A DNA stretch of 23,515 bases from positions 1 to 23,515 of IMG/VR virus record IMGVR_UViG_3300030106_001233; one strand, 5' to 3'. Shown piece by piece: positions 839 through 23,225 of this stretch (position 1 is the first letter of the stretch; the number at the start of each line of letters is the position of its first letter). The notes beneath the pieces are model-generated. The model saw nothing but the letters and a program-made list of their open reading frames with translations. It made no database searches and had not been told where the DNA came from. A program made the translations under genes and the position numbers. Origin of the DNA: a virus.

Positions 839-3271
839 ATGGGAGCAACCTATACAAGACAATCCACATACTCTGATGGAGATACAATTACAGCAGCACA
901 CAGTAATGATGAATTTAATCAATTACTAGCTGCTTTTGCTTCAGGTACAGGTCATACACATGATGGTACAACAGCAGAAGGTGGACCTATTACTAAGTTA
1001 CTTGGAACTGCTATTACAATCGGTGATGGCACAACAGGTACAGATATTGCTGTAACATTTGATGGTGAAACAAATGATGGTGTTCTTACTTGGATGGAAG
1101 ATGAAGACCATTTTAAATTTAGTGATGATGTAGTTATTGATGGTACAAAAAGATTATACTTTAATGACGAGGGTGGAGAATATATACATGGTGATGGCAC
1201 TGACCTTAATTTAGTTTCAGGTGCAGATATTAATATTCCTGCAAACATTGGATTGACATTCGGTGATGATGGAGAAAAGATTGAGGGTGACGGAACTGAT
1301 TTAACCATTACAGGTAATAACATTAATCTTACAGCAACAGCAGATGTAAATATACCATCAGGTGTAGGATTAACTTTTGCTACAGCAGAAAAAATAGAAT
1401 CAGATGGAACAGACTTAACTATTACTGTTGGGTCAAATGGTGATATAAATATACCTGCAAATATTGGATTAACATTTGGAGATGATGGAGAGAAGATAGA
1501 AGGTGATGGAACTGACCTAACAATTACAGGTAACAATATTAACCTAACTGCTACTGCTGATGTAGTTATTCCTGCAGATGTAGGTATCACATTTGGTAGT
1601 GGTGAAAAGATTGAAGGCGATAATACTGACCTAACAATTACATCAGGTGCAAAGATTAATTTAACTGCAACATCAGATGTACACATACCAAACAATGTAG
1701 GTATAGTATTTGGTGGTGATAGTGAAAAGATTGAAGGGGATGGAACTGACTTAACTATCTCTGCTAATAATCTTACAGTAGATGCTGTAGCTGATATTAT
1801 CTTAGATGCAGGTGGTGCTAATATAATATTTAAAGATGGTGGTACATCTATATTAGATATTGCAAATAATAGTACAGATGTTGAACTAACAGTTAGTACA
1901 GCAGATAAAAATTTTAAGATTAAAGGTACAGATGGTTCTAGTGCAATCACTGCTTTAGATATTGATATGGCATTAGCAGGTAAAGCTACATTTAATGGTG
2001 ATGTTGTTGTAACAGGCGATTTAACAATTACAGGGGATGACCTTGTAATGGGTACAAATACAGCAGGACATATTCTTGTTGGTGATGATACAAACTTTAA
2101 TCCTGTTGCAGTATCAGGCGATATATCAATGGCAGCAAATGGTGCAGTAACAATCGCTAATACTGCCGTTGAAAGTGGTATGTTAAATGCTAATGTAATT
2201 ACTGGACAGTCTGAATTAGGGTCGGCTGATGTAGACTCTACAAATGATGATTTACTTATACATGATGCAGATGCTGGTGCATTAAAAAAAGTATCTGTAG
2301 CTAATCTTGTTTCAAGTGCAGGAGGTATAACAGAAATTAGTGCAGATAGCACTCCACAATTAGGTGGTAATTTAGATACTAACTCACATAATATACTAAT
2401 AGATGATGCTCATTTTATTGCTGATGAAAATGGTAATGAACAGATTATATTTCAAACAACATCATCTGCTGTTAATCAGATTGATGTAACAAATGCTGCA
2501 ACAGGTAATGCACCTGAAATTTCAGCAACAGGTGGAGATACAAATGTAAGTCTTAAACTAACACCTAAAGGTTCAGGGCAAATTCTTATAGATGGAAATG
2601 TAGGTATTGAAACAGGAGTTATAGATTTAAAAAATGGTGGTTCTCAATCTAATGTTAAATTTTATTGTGAATCTTCAAATGCTCACTATGTTCAATTACA
2701 AGCACCTGCCCACAGTGATTTTTCAGGCAATGTAACAGCAACATTACCTAATGCTACAGGAACACTTGTAGGAACAGGTGATACAGGTTCAGTAACAAAT
2801 GGAATGTTAGCAGGAAGTATTGCAGCATCTAAATTAGCAGGAAGTATTGGAGATAGTAAACTTAGTACAATAAGCACAGCAGGAAAAGTTGAACTTGGAG
2901 CATTAGAAATTGATGGTGCTTCAGATATTGGAGCAGACCTTGCTGATGCTGATTTAATTATTGTTGATGATGGTGCAGGTGGAACAGAAGTAAAGTCTGA
3001 ACTAACAAGAGTTAAAAAATACATTTATTCTGCAATGTCAGGTGATGCAACTGCAAGTGATTCAGGAGCAGTTACAATAGCAAATGATGCAGTAGAAAGT
3101 GGTATGTTAAATGATAATGTTATTTCTGGTCAAACAGAATTAGCGAGTGGACTTGCAACAACAGATGAGTTGTTAGTAAGTGATGGTGGCACAATAAAAA
3201 GAATGGATGTATCTGTATTACAAGCAGTAACAGATGATTCAGCTACAGCATTAGCAATAGCTTTAGGATAG
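839..3271 (+). CDS. Large repetitive tail fibre protein
   Basis: This 810-residue protein is very rich in Gly, Asp, Thr, Asn and Ala and poor in Cys, as is usual for trimeric beta-structured fibres. The N-terminus has a GHTHDGT motif (about residues 38-44), common near the virion-attachment end of phage fibres. Residues about 104-333 hold six tandem repeats of 33-39 residues around the core EKIEGDGTDLTI. A second module (GAVTIAN, VESGMLN, then a TxELLVSDGG-like stretch) occurs twice, at about residues 426-496 and 734-800. A segment with SIAASKLAGSIGDSKL lies near residue 660. AAGGAG at 828-833 lies five bases before the ATG. It probably recognises a host surface structure. No S74 chaperone domain is present, so trimer assembly may depend on another factor. 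Confidence 0.8.
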   Translation: MGATYTRQSTYSDGDTITAAHSNDEFNQLLAAFASGTGHTHDGTTAEGGPITKLLGTAITIGDGTTGTDIAVTFDGETNDGVLTWMEDEDHFKFSDDVVIDGTKRLYFNDEGGEYIHGDGTDLNLVSGADINIPANIGLTFGDDGEKIEGDGTDLTITGNNINLTATADVNIPSGVGLTFATAEKIESDGTDLTITVGSNGDINIPANIGLTFGDDGEKIEGDGTDLTITGNNINLTATADVVIPADVGITFGSGEKIEGDNTDLTITSGAKINLTATSDVHIPNNVGIVFGGDSEKIEGDGTDLTISANNLTVDAVADIILDAGGANIIFKDGGTSILDIANNSTDVELTVSTADKNFKIKGTDGSSAITALDIDMALAGKATFNGDVVVTGDLTITGDDLVMGTNTAGHILVGDDTNFNPVAVSGDISMAANGAVTIANTAVESGMLNANVITGQSELGSADVDSTNDDLLIHDADAGALKKVSVANLVSSAGGITEISADSTPQLGGNLDTNSHNILIDDAHFIADENGNEQIIFQTTSSAVNQIDVTNAATGNAPEISATGGDTNVSLKLTPKGSGQILIDGNVGIETGVIDLKNGGSQSNVKFYCESSNAHYVQLQAPAHSDFSGNVTATLPNATGTLVGTGDTGSVTNGMLAGSIAASKLAGSIGDSKLSTISTAGKVELGALEIDGASDIGADLADADLIIVDDGAGGTEVKSELTRVKKYIYSAMSGDATASDSGAVTIANDAVESGMLNDNVISGQTELASGLATTDELLVSDGGTIKRMDVSVLQAVTDDSATALAIALG
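1148..1837 (+). repeat. Six tandem protein-level repeats in the fibre gene
   Basis: Six units, each 33-39 codons, follow the pattern GLTFGDDGEKIEGDGTDLTI followed by an Asn/Thr-rich strand and DxxIP. The second and fourth units encode an identical 41-residue block (bases 1226-1348 and 1442-1564) yet differ at 21 codons, all synonymous by direct comparison. The DNA is therefore diverged while the protein is constrained. This is a structural fibre repeat, not a CRISPR or recombination repeat. Confidence 0.85.
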
Positions 3272-13100: not shown

Positions 13101-14289
13101 TAATGTTAATGAAGCCTTAAAATTAAAAGATTTTAATAAATGGAAAACAGAAGGATATAAAGCATTTCAATTAACAGGAGAAGGTAGACCGGGAAAAACT
13201 ACATTAGGATTGCCTGCAACAGGAAGAGAATTGATGCAAGGTTTTTTTGGTTCTACATTTAGAGGTGCAGGTCCTTTAATAAAAATAACAGATGATATAA
13301 TAAATAGTATAGACCCTGACTCTGATAATGTACAGAGTATGCGTTCTTATGCTAGACTAGGAGAATATTTTGGTGATGCTGCTAGTGGTTTTGGACAACC
13401 TATTTTTCAATTTGCTGAAGTACCTATAAGAGCTCCATCTGATGAAAAATTTTTACACTTTACAGCTATAGCTGACCCACATGAACGTAGAAGAGCATAT
13501 TTAGCTGACCCAACATATGAAAGTGGAGTAGGTGCTTTTATGGATGGATTTGCTAAACCTATTAAAGGTAGACTTGATAGGGTAATGCGAATTTTTGAAG
13601 CATCAGATGCAGAATTAGAAAGAATAAAAGAAGATAAAAGATATTTTGCAGAGAGTCCTATATTTGAACAAACACCTGTTAGAGTATTATCTTGGATGAA
13701 GTTACTATTTGGTGCAACTCTTACAAAAGCACCCCCACCATATTATAAAGAATTAGGAAGGTTAGGATTTACCTACAAAGATTTTATGGGTAAAACCAGC
13801 AATGATATCCAAAATGCAGAGTTTAATAAAAGAATGGGGGAATGGAATAATAGATATATGGCTAATCTTATACTAGATGCATTTGATAATGCTAAAAAAG
13901 TTTTAATAGCAGGACAAAGAATAACAGACCCAAAATTAATAGATAGGATTGCTGCTTCAAGAATAAGAAATGAAATATCAAAAGTAAGAACATCTATTAC
14001 AGAAGAAATAAAAAAATTAGATGATGGTGATGTAAAAGCAGCTAGTATGTATAATAGATACAATTCATTAGATAATCGAGATAAAGAATCTAGAGAACGC
14101 TTTTTACGAACAGAAATGAAAGCATTTTATGAACGAGATAATGTAGATTTAGAATATTTTAAAAAAAGATTAGGATTAAATAGTCTAGAAGAAATAGAAG
14201 AATTATACGACCCAAATAAAAAAGAGTTCCGATTAGATTTAACAAATATTAAAATTCTTAATGAATTATTATCTATTGATTTTAAGTAA
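10174..14289 (+). CDS. Very large probable ejection (internal virion) protein
   Basis: A 1371-residue, largely helical, Lys/Glu-rich protein with no recognised catalytic motif. Two low-charge segments stand out: about residues 228-265 (MADVAGTVGTNVFIQVADPL and on) and about 324-346, where AAVGAVTGGVLGGVGS is a Gly-rich hydrophobic stretch able to insert into a membrane. The central part has many Lys/Gln helices. The last 300 residues include ASGFGQPIFQFAEVPIRAPS. Size, composition and place at the end of the virion block match large T7 gp16-type ejection proteins, which extend the tail across the cell envelope. Unlike T7 gp16, I see no N-terminal lytic transglycosylase signature. It is the last + strand gene before the strand switch. 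Confidence 0.6.
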   Translation: MPELTKEEFEAKTGTTFDALYKGKSTPIEIKPTDLETDEPFVEKVDAPKSIMDSTTRQMRNLSLLATGQETPKEKFIRLDEESEILPKVTREDLEKDEDFLNMYLQHRVDRFPHIVGEGAEGLSYPAHNLIGGKIEDSTNEDYIDDYIDYMRFETQNILDVSFARSWLQDTKDKQRISIERGDTEEANKYANQLLRYKKLHQTWNRFAGLTDSARYENKDALQIMADVAGTVGTNVFIQVADPLTIFTAAGTKLIDAVTVGAARKKAVGSLLTNALASVGRNPIKTGVVTGAMIDGSTSLFLDLALQSNEIEVGIRKEIDYDRATATAAVGAVTGGVLGGVGSMSLTRAERITRGEISKGFKNAVKKAVSEARKTNTDVKNKELADSIREKLAKGIEKNFGKKSIIRNKDGKALRVNYDVMKKKTDDVMLNAGLSDDFFDARLSLETHERVIGALTDIISSARKGDIELDVLPSSNLTPKMLTGKLRGNETVSERMINLVTNIDKKHHNKLKEIFGKYNVTYREIAAATFTEASEAAKILQLRSQLSKNIGRSPFDKIKQTAEDIAEQQADTIYKKLRKNSANLALAIDSGSRTAIQTLKTQQQALKTQLRKVKKTASGKKVIGVYDAALHAENLRRLALVSAIPTAIRNNYSQKIRSAVEMPIYFLESVLNPRKKVSLEGTMSQLRFTFYDQQEAAVLTQSILGMFPEQRAKFASNYAESVNLVKKLNPSQNGTARLQNGLDTKPNRVLDTAENVLHMVNGLNRFQEAVYRNGHFAASMQRMLIDKGQNDMMKVLRNGELLKHLDEADIEKAVDDALNFTYASEPEFGPFKAINNMLVRSIVGTWIAPFPRFMFKAIEMTYNYNHTGIVHGLGEVLYGSAAGSTYRSDKGFRRIAQGIAGGTPLISLGYYLRDPETGTAGAEFHNLVDRDGNEYNALYYFPLAPYLLIGEMIHRSENNFFNMMGVNVPNPYKIGFNVNEALKLKDFNKWKTEGYKAFQLTGEGRPGKTTLGLPATGRELMQGFFGSTFRGAGPLIKITDDIINSIDPDSDNVQSMRSYARLGEYFGDAASGFGQPIFQFAEVPIRAPSDEKFLHFTAIADPHERRRAYLADPTYESGVGAFMDGFAKPIKGRLDRVMRIFEASDAELERIKEDKRYFAESPIFEQTPVRVLSWMKLLFGATLTKAPPPYYKELGRLGFTYKDFMGKTSNDIQNAEFNKRMGEWNNRYMANLILDAFDNAKKVLIAGQRITDPKLIDRIAASRIRNEISKVRTSITEEIKKLDDGDVKAASMYNRYNSLDNRDKESRERFLRTEMKAFYERDNVDLEYFKKRLGLNSLEEIEELYDPNKKEFRLDLTNIKILNELLSIDFK

Positions 14290-14430
14290 TACTCTCACAA
14301 TATCATTTAATTTTATTTGACAAGATTCTAACAAAGCTATTGTTGACTTAATATCTGCTAAAATCTTGTCATTTGTATTGTTTTTCTTTTTAGCTAAAAA
14401 ATCTTTAGCTTCTTGCTCTAACTTGTTCAC
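14269..14430 (-). CDS. Possible 53-residue protein at the convergent junction
   Basis: A GTG-start frame (begins MNKLEQEAKDFLAKKK) runs to a TAA inside the end of the large + strand gene, overlapping it by 21 bases. It starts inside the last codons of the RMF-like gene (26-base overlap), a coupling pattern common in this region. The product would be helical and charged in its first half, with leucine/isoleucine spacing fitting a small amphipathic helix bundle. The upstream AAAGAAAG is a weak ribosome binding site. Against it, the frame covers the inverted repeat proposed as a terminator. I rate it plausible but unproven. Confidence 0.35.
   Translation of the reverse strand: MNKLEQEAKDFLAKKKNNTNDKILADIKSTIALLESCQIKLNDIVRVLLKINR
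14318..14371 (+). terminator. Possible terminator of the virion transcript
   Basis: TGACAAGATT at 14318-14327 is the exact reverse complement of AATCTTGTCA at 14362-14371. The + strand then continues TTTGTATTGTTTTTCTTTTT. A 10-base stem followed by a T-rich run at a tail-to-tail gene junction fits a rho-independent terminator for the + transcript. The 34-base loop is long, though it could contain a small inner stem (AACAA/TTGTT at 14330-14344), so the call is tentative. Confidence 0.4.
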
Positions 14431-14620
14431 GTTGTTTTACTTTCTTTAAATTTTCAAAATAGGCTGTATTCCAACCTCTTTGCCATTCTCTATGTTGCAT
14501 AGAGTTTTGCTTCAATTTACTATCTAAACTACCTCTTTTGAAGGCTTTATATCCCCACCCAAATTGAATACTTAGTGGTGCATCATATTTACTTAGATAT
14601 TTTTTCCTTTTTTGTATCAT
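14405..14620 (-). CDS. RMF-like protein (ribosome modulation factor/CrpP fold)
   Basis: A 71-residue basic protein. Residues 23-53 follow the ribosome modulation factor pattern: G23-Y24-K-A26...G30, about 16 residues, then W46-Q-R-G49-W50...A53. E. coli RMF has GYQA...G and WLGGW...A at nearly the same spacing. RMF binds the 30S subunit and helps turn ribosomes into inactive dimers; related small proteins occur in plasmids and phages (Rmf/CrpP fold). A phage version might alter host translation, or might be a structural cousin with another role. AGGAGAG precedes the ATG at good spacing. The gene overlaps the upstream gene by 32 bases. Fold similarity is based on the conserved Gly/Trp pattern only. 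Confidence 0.6.
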   Translation of the reverse strand: MIQKRKKYLSKYDAPLSIQFGWGYKAFKRGSLDSKLKQNSMQHREWQRGWNTAYFENLKKVKQREQVRARS

Positions 14621-14837
14621 CTTTACTCTCCTCTTTTTTGTTAAAGTATTTTTCTAGTATCTCTATCTTGTCATGGTAATCTGCAATTATTCCAAGATGT
14701 TTTTCTATCTCTTCTTGTATATCACCATGTTCACCAATACCTACAGGTTGATTTAACAACACTTCAACATTGGCTACTCTTCTATTTATCATACCTATAT
14801 AGTATGATTTAGCAGTATTAATTAACATTTGTCGCAT
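14589..14837 (-). CDS. Conserved small phage protein, function unknown
   Basis: An 82-residue protein. The motif INRRVANVEVLLNQPVGIGE followed by HGDIQEEIEKHLGIIADYHD (about residues 17-56) is one I recall from unnamed small proteins of cyanophages and other marine phages. It is helical with a conserved HxDI turn and a Lys/Glu-rich C-terminal tail of about 18 residues. The ribosome binding site AAGGAG lies seven bases before the ATG. The start lies within the end of the upstream PD-(D/E)XK-like gene (20-base overlap) and the end covers the start of the RMF-like gene, so all three are probably one transcript. No catalytic motif is seen. Confidence 0.65.
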   Translation of the reverse strand: MRQMLINTAKSYYIGMINRRVANVEVLLNQPVGIGEHGDIQEEIEKHLGIIADYHDKIEILEKYFNKKEESKDDTKKEKISK

Positions 14838-15252
14838 CTTTTATCTCCTTTTTAAAAGCCTTAATCACATCTGATGAAAACAATCTTTGTATATTTAATA
14901 GATACATACGTGAAGCATTGTTATCACCACCTTTTACACTTCTTTTATAATCAAGATTGTTGATTATTTTTTTGAGGTTCTTCGTTTCAAAAACAATCGT
15001 AGCAAATGTTTCATCTCCAATACAAAGATTATGAAACCAATAATCCGACTCCGTACTGTTAATTCCACTAGGTTTACCATAGCTCTCATACTCGACAGCA
15101 ATATTACCCGAAGTTTGCCAAATATCTCTTTCACTTTTTACCTCTATCTTTTTATCTTGTAACATATCGACAATCATTTGTTCTCTTACTTTACCATATT
15201 TCAAATCAATGTCAAACTTTTTTCTATTATCTTTACTAGGTTCTATACTCAT
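14818..15252 (-). CDS. PD-(D/E)XK nuclease-like protein
   Basis: A 144-residue protein. The first half has KYGKVREQMIVDML with E24, then KIEVKSERDIW with E37 and K39, then TSGNIAVEYESYGKPSGIN with E54. A helix with Glu, an ExK strand and a following Glu are the usual pattern of small PD-(D/E)XK nucleases such as Holliday-junction resolvases. The ExK and GKPSGI blocks recur in unnamed marine-phage proteins. The expected Asp before the ExK strand is not clear, so the active site may be rearranged or the protein may have lost cleavage activity. The function could be DNA repair or degradation of host DNA. It follows the reductase by 22 bases and its ribosome binding site is part of a short inverted repeat. 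Confidence 0.55.
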   Translation of the reverse strand: MSIEPSKDNRKKFDIDLKYGKVREQMIVDMLQDKKIEVKSERDIWQTSGNIAVEYESYGKPSGINSTESDYWFHNLCIGDETFATIVFETKNLKKIINNLDYKRSVKGGDNNASRMYLLNIQRLFSSDVIKAFKKEIKDATNVN

Positions 15253-15274: not shown

Positions 15275-17215
15275 TTAAGTTAAATCAACGACTTCACAAG
15301 AGTCTGCTGTACAAGCTAATTCTCTACCACCTGTAGTAGTATCTTCTCTTTCAAACTCTTGTAGTTTTGACCAATCTATATTCTTTGGCATCTTATCCAT
15401 CCATTCATTATATTCTTTTTCTGTAATGTCTTGATAAGGTGCTTGCTTATAAGAGTGGTCGCTATGTGGTAGGAAACTAATACCTGATACTTCATCAAAA
15501 TGTTTATACACCCAAGCACCAACTTCCATCCATTCTTCTTCTCTAACTGTTATTGTAACAGAGGGTTTATGTTCACACCAATATCTTTGATACATCAACC
15601 ATGTTTCTAATTGCCATAAAGCAGACTTATCATTTCGCTTAATAGCATTAGGTGGTGATTTCATTGGAAAACTAAACACCATAACACTTTGAGGTTTCAT
15701 TACATCAGGTTCACTAGGTATGCCTTGCTCTATCATAAACTGTGTTAATGGGTCTTTTACATCACCTCTAACAGTTCTGATGTAATAATCATTATGTCTA
15801 GCATGAATACCACTAGCACTATCTACAAGCTGTGATACTGTGCCACTAGGTTTAACACAAGTAATAGCAGTGGATTGTGGTATTTCTAATTGCTTGGCAT
15901 AAACAGCATTTGTTGTTACAGCAGTTTCTTTTAAGTTTTCTAACACACATTTTAATATATGATTATCTATACTACCATTCTTAGGAACAAGTGTAGGACA
16001 ATCTAATATACCTGTTAAAGATACTCCTAATAATCTTTCTTCTTCTGTATTATCTTTCCATATCTTTCTAATATATTTAAAGTCTGTGAGTGTAGATTGA
16101 AACGTACCTAGTATTGTAGCAAGTTCTACCTTTTCTTGTAAAGTTTCTAATGTATCATTCTCTCTTGCGACAACTTCAGATAGGTTACAGAATTGATAAG
16201 GTCTTAGTATAATCTCACTACAAGGATTACAACCAAATGCAAACTCTGTATTTCTTCTACCATTTTTCTCTGCTTGTTTAACAGCAGACTTACGATTAAA
16301 GATACCTCTTTCTCCTGACTTACTTTCTACAAGAGCTAACCACTCTCGCATAAATGTTTCCATTTGTACTTTACCTTTATAGGCAACAGAGTTATTTGCT
16401 AATGCTCGTTGTCCTTCGTTTTCCCACCAAGAACCTGACTTAGCGTGTCGCATTTGGTCATCACCAAGATTAGATAAACTAATCAATGCTGACCTTCTAA
16501 CACCACCTACAACAACAACTTCACCAATCTTACACATAATATCATGGCACTCTACTGGATATAATCTTCTACCTGCAGCATTTTTAAATATGCTTACACA
16601 AAAATGATATAAGTCTACCAAAGGTTGAGGACCTGATGCTCTACCACCAAATGTCTTTAATCTTGCACCTGCAGGTCTTACATCTTCAATATTAAACTGA
16701 GGTATCTGTCCTGCATATAACATAGCAATTAACTCTCTTAAAGATTTAGCCCAACCGGGTCTGCTATCTCCTACCTTAATTACTGTGTCAGATTCATGGA
16801 AGTCTTCATTAATGATAGGTAGTTTGTCTACATTTTCTCTTTCTACAGAAAACCCTACACCTGTGCCACACATTAATATATACATACATTCATCAAAAGC
16901 TCTAGGGCTATCTATAGGTATATATGAACAGTTATACCCTGCAACATGGCATCTATCTAAAGCAGGTCCTGATGTCATCAATGCTCGCATACTTGGCATA
17001 ATCTGCTGTGAGTATATTGCATCATATAATCTACTCTTTAATTCTGTAGGGATTGTATAATCATAATTATTCTCTAAATGATTACTCATATAATCCATAT
17101 ATCTTGTTACAGTTTCTCCCCAAGATTCTCTTCTTTGCTCATCATCTTTCCATCTAGCATACCTAGATAGTGCTATAAAGTTTTGGTAGTCTGTTGGTAG
17201 TGCATTATTAATCAT
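15275..17215 (-). CDS. nrdJ: Ribonucleotide reductase, class II (adenosylcobalamin-dependent)
   Basis: This 646-residue enzyme reduces ribonucleotides to deoxyribonucleotides for phage DNA synthesis, using vitamin B12 coenzyme to make its radical. The sequence shows AGYNCSYIPID with C96 and CGTGVGFSVE nearby. NPCSEI holds the radical cysteine C332 and E334, and QFCNLSE carries the partner cysteine C343. KPSGTVSQLVDSASGIHARH is the phosphate-binding region. The C-terminus ACTADSCEVVDLT has the redox pair C635/C640 that regenerates the active-site disulfide. It is shorter than the 739-residue Lactobacillus monomeric enzyme, consistent with phage versions. GGAGAG precedes the ATG. No nrdAB or class I small subunit is seen in the window. 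Class II needs no oxygen and no iron, but depends on host cobalamin. Confidence 0.93.
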   Translation of the reverse strand: MINNALPTDYQNFIALSRYARWKDDEQRRESWGETVTRYMDYMSNHLENNYDYTIPTELKSRLYDAIYSQQIMPSMRALMTSGPALDRCHVAGYNCSYIPIDSPRAFDECMYILMCGTGVGFSVERENVDKLPIINEDFHESDTVIKVGDSRPGWAKSLRELIAMLYAGQIPQFNIEDVRPAGARLKTFGGRASGPQPLVDLYHFCVSIFKNAAGRRLYPVECHDIMCKIGEVVVVGGVRRSALISLSNLGDDQMRHAKSGSWWENEGQRALANNSVAYKGKVQMETFMREWLALVESKSGERGIFNRKSAVKQAEKNGRRNTEFAFGCNPCSEIILRPYQFCNLSEVVARENDTLETLQEKVELATILGTFQSTLTDFKYIRKIWKDNTEEERLLGVSLTGILDCPTLVPKNGSIDNHILKCVLENLKETAVTTNAVYAKQLEIPQSTAITCVKPSGTVSQLVDSASGIHARHNDYYIRTVRGDVKDPLTQFMIEQGIPSEPDVMKPQSVMVFSFPMKSPPNAIKRNDKSALWQLETWLMYQRYWCEHKPSVTITVREEEWMEVGAWVYKHFDEVSGISFLPHSDHSYKQAPYQDITEKEYNEWMDKMPKNIDWSKLQEFEREDTTTGGRELACTADSCEVVDLT

Positions 17216-22817: not shown

Positions 22818-23225
22818 TTAAAAATTATAACCTAATGCCATCTTAGCATCTTCACTCATTCTTTCAGGTGTCCAAGCAGGTTGCCAAATTAAATGTACAG
22901 AAACTAAACCAACATTTTTAAGTTTAGATACTTTATTAGCTACTTCTTTTGGCAGTTCCCCTGCAACTGGGCAACTTGGAGATGTTAATGACATTTCTAT
23001 ATCAACATCCCCATTATCATGTTTATGTATATTATAAATTAAACCTAACTCATAAATATTAACAGGTATTTCAGGGTCATATATTTTTGATATAACATTT
23101 AATATATCTGCCCTTGAAACTATATCTTTTTGTTTTATATTTTTTAATTTTAAACCTGCCTTTGCTACATAACCTTCATCAACAGAAGGTAAAAAATCAT
23201 TTAAAGATGGGTTCTCTTTATCCAT
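22818..23225 (-). CDS. SufT/MIP18-like Fe-S cluster assembly protein (DUF59)
   Basis: A 135-residue protein. After about 38 less conserved residues, the DUF59 domain shows YDPEIPVNIYELGLIYNI (49-66), then VDIEMSLTSPSCPVAGELP (74-92) with the family cysteine C85, and WQPAWTPERMSEDAKMALG near the end. Cellular relatives (SufT, PaaD, MIP18) help deliver or install Fe-S clusters on target proteins. In a phage it might serve its own Fe-S proteins, such as the Cas4-like nuclease, or host enzymes during infection. The upstream site is weak and the gene follows the oxygenase gene by eight bases. Family membership is clear; the phage role is inferred. Confidence 0.88.
   Translation of the reverse strand: MDKENPSLNDFLPSVDEGYVAKAGLKLKNIKQKDIVSRADILNVISKIYDPEIPVNIYELGLIYNIHKHDNGDVDIEMSLTSPSCPVAGELPKEVANKVSKLKNVGLVSVHLIWQPAWTPERMSEDAKMALGYNF

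Follow-up and report, generated by a model that had tools for sequence, protein, structure and literature searches.

Does a small, unassigned gene in the replication operon of a marine phage encode a protein of the ribosome modulation factor (RMF) superfamily and, if it does, would that protein act on the ribosomes of the host? The gene lies in a virus record of 23,515 bases (IMGVR_UViG_3300030106_001233), which we analysed at its full length and refer to here as the window. A first-pass annotation had called its product RMF-like on account of two short motifs and had suggested docking on the 30S subunit. We asked how far sequence profiles, predicted structure, residue conservation and gene order agree with this view.

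The gene and its surroundings

The window has a G+C content of 32% and encodes a DNA polymerase whose zinc insertion is of the DnaJ type (PF00684 match under the Pfam cut-off, E 4.6e-5), a feature that the available part of PMC9038755 describes as typical of HMO-2011-type podoviruses. The best matches of this polymerase are those of CRP-345, HMO-2011 and CRP-1, at 62-64% identity. The phage is of the HMO-2011 type, and the RMF-like gene lies in its replication operon (Table 1). The first-pass annotation had placed it at the right coordinates and named no strand; it is read from the minus strand. From a dN/dS of about 0.14-0.23 between the window gene and its three nearest homologues, we conclude that the open reading frame is a real, conserved gene, one that by this sequence measure is under purifying selection. 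The close homologues share the Shine-Dalgarno-like motif upstream, and the phrog_1811 neighbour is found upstream in many loci of the family.

Two further genes of the window were observed in passing. A 135-residue protein (22818-23225, minus strand) contains an iron-sulfur assembly domain (PF01883, E 7.8e-17) and is a possible auxiliary metabolic gene product, and a long protein at 839-3271, without a Pfam match and built of repeated GEKIEGDGTDLT-like units, is probably fibre-related.

Table 1. Features of the RMF-like locus in the window
Feature	Position	Strand	Remarks
53-aa ORF	14269..14430	-	Downstream of the RMF-like gene; no family match; also downstream in loci L001-L003
RMF-like gene, 71 aa	14405..14620	-	ATG start; supported by ORF, homologues, dN/dS and predicted RMF-like fold
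Second motif, WQRGWNTA	14462..14485	-	Residues 46-53, in helix 2; W46/G49/W50 = RMF W40/G43/W44
First motif, GYKAFKRG	14531..14554	-	Residues 23-30, end of helix 1; G23 = RMF G16, G30 = RMF G23
82-aa neighbour, phrog_1811	14589..14837	-	No assigned function; overlaps the start of the RMF-like gene
Shine-Dalgarno-like AGAGGAG	14628..14634	-	Contains GAGGAG; upstream of the RMF-like start codon; from sequence
144-aa neighbour, phrog_13596	14818..15252	-	No assigned function; common to pelagiphages and HMO-2011
B12-dependent (class II) ribonucleotide reductase (RNR)	15275..17215	-	Upstream, same operon as the RMF-like gene

Distribution of the family

Searching IMG/VR with the single protein, we found 34 relatives among 60 candidate stretches, and an alignment query recovered at least 501 among 600. 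A tblastn search of isolates gave nine records: HMO-2011 (twice), CRP-1, CRP-345, ctYwJ313, CRP-3, CRP-212, CRP-235, for which membership is based on an E-value of 0.1 together with its position after RNR, and a Curtobacterium phage, whose match is at chance level. The gene is present in 6 of the 11 isolates with a polymerase match (at least 99% of the query, at least 36% identity), and the search for it gave no match in CRP-207, CRP-603, CRP-2, HTVC033P and CRP-738. Being absent from part of the polymerase-matched isolates, it is an accessory gene.

Annotated isolate copies are labelled hypothetical; the gene is gp20 in HMO-2011 and gp29 in CRP-1. In CRP-3, CRP-212 and CRP-235 the ORF directly follows RNR at a place where no feature is annotated, and six relatives (L199, L201, L202, L216, L243 and L244) have apparent TTG starts preceded by strong Shine-Dalgarno sequences. 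Comparison of the family with PHROGs gave no noteworthy match to an entry with a name or function; one member of the 25-sequence alignment A1 (see below) matches phrog_26995 (E 9.4e-6), an entry without a description. The proteins apparently form a large HMO-2011-type marine podovirus family that has gone without a name so far. The phages of this type are reported, in the available text of PMC9038755, to be dominant in the ocean and widespread there.

Motif and sequence kinship to RMF

The two motifs named in the first-pass annotation, GY.A...G and W..GW..A, are indeed present at RMF-like spacing: G30 and W46 of the phage protein lie 16 residues apart, and the equivalent G23 and W40 of E. coli RMF lie 17 apart. 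The combined pattern arose in one of 2,000,000 shuffles of the 71-residue protein and occurs in one of the 162 window ORFs of at least 40 codons, the RMF-like ORF itself. None of 3115 ORFs across six related isolates carries it, yet three of the six bear an orthologue with small changes, and the exact pattern is therefore narrow.

The window protein alone matches no Pfam family, PF04957 (RMF) included, and no NCBIfam family. The PF04957 gathering cut-off is 27.9 bits and the best isolate orthologue reaches 15.7 bits. Below that cut-off, PF04957 finds the orthologue, and nothing else, in the genomes of CRP-345, CRP-1, ctYwJ313, CRP-3 and CRP-212 (E 0.001-0.012). It misses HMO-2011 and CRP-235, the other two of the seven phages that carry the gene, and 15 family records from IMG/VR gave no match either. 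We assembled phage alignments A1 (25 members) and A3 (41 members), used a further alignment, A4, and compared them with a reference of 35 classic RMFs and 26 divergent bacterial RMF-like proteins. At E of 1 or less, PF04957 matches 6 of the 25 A1 members and 11 of the 41 A3 members, the best at 2.1e-4. Other weak Pfam matches of the family were treated as chance.

In the opposite direction, the A1 profile, which contains no sequences from Agrobacterium phage Milano, has exactly two matches over the whole Milano genome, and these are both of its annotated RMF-superfamily genes (E 0.0018 and 0.0029). Over eight bacterial genomes A1 matches three places, of which two are the PF04957 loci of G206 (E 0.068) and G144 (E 0.32) and the third, in G138 (E 0.97), is not among the PF04957 matches. 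Against 177,635 PDB sequences it has two matches only, both RMF (E 0.036 and 0.039); A3 and A4 find no RMF there, and the PDB matches of A4 to mTOR FRB and NucC (E 0.41 and up) were set aside as chance. A tblastn search with E. coli RMF gave no match in phages, and a similar query with a divergent bacterial RMF-like protein gave weak matches only, in Streptomyces, Caulobacter and Serratia phages.

Profile-profile comparison with hhalign gave probabilities for A1 of 92.8% against all 61 RMF-type sequences, 90.6% against the 26 divergent ones and 58.0% against the 35 classic ones. The A1 scores were 35.5 (divergent) and 27.0 (classic), with the best of 200 column-permuted controls each at 15.0 and 16.8, and the best permuted probabilities were 2.2% and 4.1%, respectively. 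A3 and A4 reached 75.1% and 86.0% against the divergent set, and 6.5% and 18.4% against the classic set. These controls reject chance likeness for A1, and the comparison of A4 with classic RMF alone is a borderline case (score 21.9, best permutation 19.9). Similarity to the divergent branch of the superfamily (IPR023200-type) is thus above controls, and as the divergent-set scores exceed the classic-set scores, we place the phage family nearest to that branch.

Predicted structure

AlphaFold2 predicts a two-helix hairpin both for the window protein (41 alignment rows, pLDDT 85.1, helices at residues 16-29 and 41-70) and for a compact relative (22 rows, pLDDT 83.5), the helices being joined by a loop, as in RMF proper. 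Foldseek listed no RMF among PDB matches of the first model, and Vibrio RMF (2jrm) at rank 1 for the second, with an E-value of 1.5. When the first model was realigned to the top Foldseek chains, E. coli RMF (9iot) came first (Z 6.0, rmsd 3.3, 52 aligned) and 2jrm second (Z 5.9, rmsd 3.9, 58 aligned), the next row having a Z of 4.0; for the second model RMF took ranks 1-3 (2jrm 5.3, 9iot 5.2, 6h4n 4.8), with the next at 3.5. We stress that a Z of 5-6 is modest for helical folds and can reflect a common arrangement of helices; the match carries weight because it agrees with the sequence evidence. With that caution, the predicted fold is that of the RMF superfamily, divergent branch. The first-pass annotation had regarded a fold unlike RMF as telling against its reading, and the prediction came out RMF-like; together with the profile matches in both directions and the controlled profile-profile comparison, it bears out the description of the protein as RMF-like.

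Residues shared with and lost from RMF

In E. coli RMF, according to the available part of PMC8126665, the substitutions G16A, C29A, W40A and W44A abolish ribosome binding, R3, K5 and R45 contact 16S rRNA, with R45 contacting the anti-Shine-Dalgarno sequence, and G23A and R45A keep ribosome binding and lose normal dimerisation. We counted the equivalent columns in 25 aligned phage members, 26 divergent bacterial relatives and 35 classic RMFs. The packing residues are kept: the equivalents of G16, W40 and G43 are G, W and G in all 25 phage members, and that of W44 is aromatic (W, F or Y) in all 25. An invariant Glu and an invariant Arg flank this core, giving an EW.RG signature. The charge of the window protein is +13, that of E. 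coli RMF +7, and the median over 85 family members +7. Conservation in the family concentrates on the RMF packing core and the basic ends.

Other positions differ. At the R45 position, occupied in the window protein by N51 (alignment A1), the phage family has N in 22 members and D in 3; each of the 35 classic RMFs has Arg there, and each of the 26 divergent bacterial relatives some other residue. C29-P30 of RMF corresponds to S34-K35 of the window protein, with C in 1 and P in 14 of the 25 phage members. The equivalent of G23 is G in the window protein and in 14 of the 25. Read from the alignment, the loss of C29 counts against ribosome docking. Because the Pfam cut-off, C29 and R45 all fail, the protein should not be filed as RMF itself.

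Proposed role and alternatives

Given these results, we hypothesize that the gene encodes a divergent RMF-superfamily protein that would dock on host ribosomes without pairing them, a proposition to which we give about an even chance. Like RMF, the basic hairpin would dock on the platform of the host 30S subunit, close to the 3' end of 16S rRNA; once docked, the protein may slow or redirect translation initiation in the host, or protect idle ribosomes. Docking would occur without formation of 100S dimers, since R45, the residue tied to dimerisation and to the anti-Shine-Dalgarno contact, is gone.

Gene order bears on what the protein might do besides. Among 85 non-redundant loci RNR lies upstream in 80, and in 78 the RMF-like gene has a mazG at its 3' end, either overlapping it or abutting on it; the overlap is annotated in HMO-2011, CRP-345 and CRP-1. 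Seven loci lack an adjoining mazG: those of the three close relatives of the window, two divergent ones, and two truncated ones that have no room downstream. In the window's clade the 53-residue ORF of Table 1 occupies the place of mazG. From the coupling to MazG in most relatives, we suggest that the pair probably adjusts the starved, slow-growing host for phage replication. E. coli RMF is ppGpp-dependent (available text of PMC11100668); a simple ppGpp story is unsupported, since the MazG of a cyanophage reportedly does not cleave ppGpp (available text of PMC9038755). A bolder form of the proposal, which we hold tentatively and on balance doubt, is a two-gene starvation-override module of HMO-2011-type phages, in which a non-dimerising RMF-superfamily protein on the 30S platform and a co-translated MazG would retune ribosome use and nucleotide pools, and so permit replication in slow-growing ocean bacteria.

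The same gene order also suits a protein that keeps the RMF fold and binds no ribosome, serving instead as partner or regulator of the adjoining MazG pyrophosphohydrolase or of another nucleotide enzyme of the operon; the start of mazG inside or just after the RMF-like gene and the loss of both R45 and C29 are what such a role would lead one to expect. We consider it unlikely, because the window's clade keeps the gene under purifying selection, and a search of the window and of its three close relatives' records (23.5-42 kb, all possibly incomplete) gave no MazG domain. In CRP-3, CRP-212, CRP-235 and ctYwJ313, moreover, the NTP-pyrophosphohydrolase gene stands before RNR, on its other side, and isolates without the RMF-like gene still carry MazG-type genes.

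Small proteins of phage early operons are often host-takeover factors, and a small basic protein might reuse an RMF-type hairpin against another target, such as RNA polymerase, a nuclease or the membrane. That the nearest relatives belong to a divergent RMF-like branch with no function established here leaves space for this idea; conservation that falls on the packing core and the basic ends, as rRNA binding would predict, speaks against it, and we think it a little less probable still. Much less credible is a genuine hibernation factor that, as E. coli RMF does, joins ribosomes into 100S particles: the fold and core residues agree with RMF, but all 25 members have N or D in place of the dimerisation residue R45 and only 14 of them keep G23, and it is R45A and G23A that bind and fail in normal dimerisation (PMC8126665, available part). 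That the likeness is a chance resemblance of short helical hairpins is very improbable: the protein is short, its single-sequence scores are weak and two profiles miss RMF in PDB, but forward and reverse searches led independently to loci of the same kind, the permutation controls were exceeded and RMF was twice the top structural match.

The first-pass annotation had also raised an effect on ribosome choice. We compared Shine-Dalgarno strength between the early and late strands of six isolates, of which three have the gene and three lack it, using simple ORF calling in which genes cut by piece borders are lost. Pairing was weaker on the late strand in five of the six phages, with or without the RMF-like gene (CRP-1, CRP-345, CRP-2, CRP-207 and CRP-603), and HMO-2011, which has the gene, showed no such drop. 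No consistent early/late difference thus separates phages with the gene from those without it, and we dropped ribosome choice through Shine-Dalgarno strength as an explanation. In the open-access literature searched, nothing joined roseophages, or MazG, to ribosome modulation factor, and the word 'ribosome' does not occur in the available portions of PMC9038755 and PMC6918029.

The predicted RMF fold of a protein encoded on at least 501 IMG/VR stretches gives a gene otherwise hypothetical or unannotated a named, testable hypothesis. If docking is true, ribosome-hibernation biology would extend to phage infection of slow-growing cells; if the module is true, a phage group that is common in the sea would possess a ribosome-targeting factor.

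Comparison with known systems

With E. coli RMF (PF04957) the phage protein shares the two-helix hairpin (predicted in the phage), the G16/G43/W40/W44 core, basic ends, and similar length and motif spacing. It differs in that, across the family, R45 has become N or D, C29 is lost, G42 is replaced by an invariant R and an E precedes the first W; the C-terminal helix is predicted to be longer, and the window protein has no PF04957 match. The divergent, PF04957-matched RMF-like proteins of Pseudomonadota are the closest of the known groups by single-set profile match (90.6%) and have likewise lost R45, in 26 of 26; unlike the phage family, they sometimes occur in several copies per genome, and the phage EW.RG signature is absent among the sequences listed.

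Among phages, proteins of Caulobacter phage CcrBL9 and Myoviridae sp. ctu2j3 labelled 'ribosome modulation factor' in BFVD match our model structurally, with weak E-values (1.4 and 3.7), and come from other phage groups. RMF-superfamily proteins have already been annotated in other phages, for example in Milano (available text of PMC6588377). The two Milano proteins (QBQ72082 and QBQ72098, IPR023200) are, like ours, phage-encoded, and both are found by A1; they belong to another phage group, score higher with PF04957 (34.5 and 25.9 bits) and have no MazG neighbour in the annotation examined. A third, unannotated PF04957 match in Milano (43598-43699, L284; E 3.3e-5) lies just after an annotated RMF-superfamily gene and runs into the start of a macro-domain gene. 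Given the Milano precedent, an RMF-superfamily protein in a phage is of a kind already known; the family described here is a new one, divergent within that superfamily and at home in a common group of marine phages.
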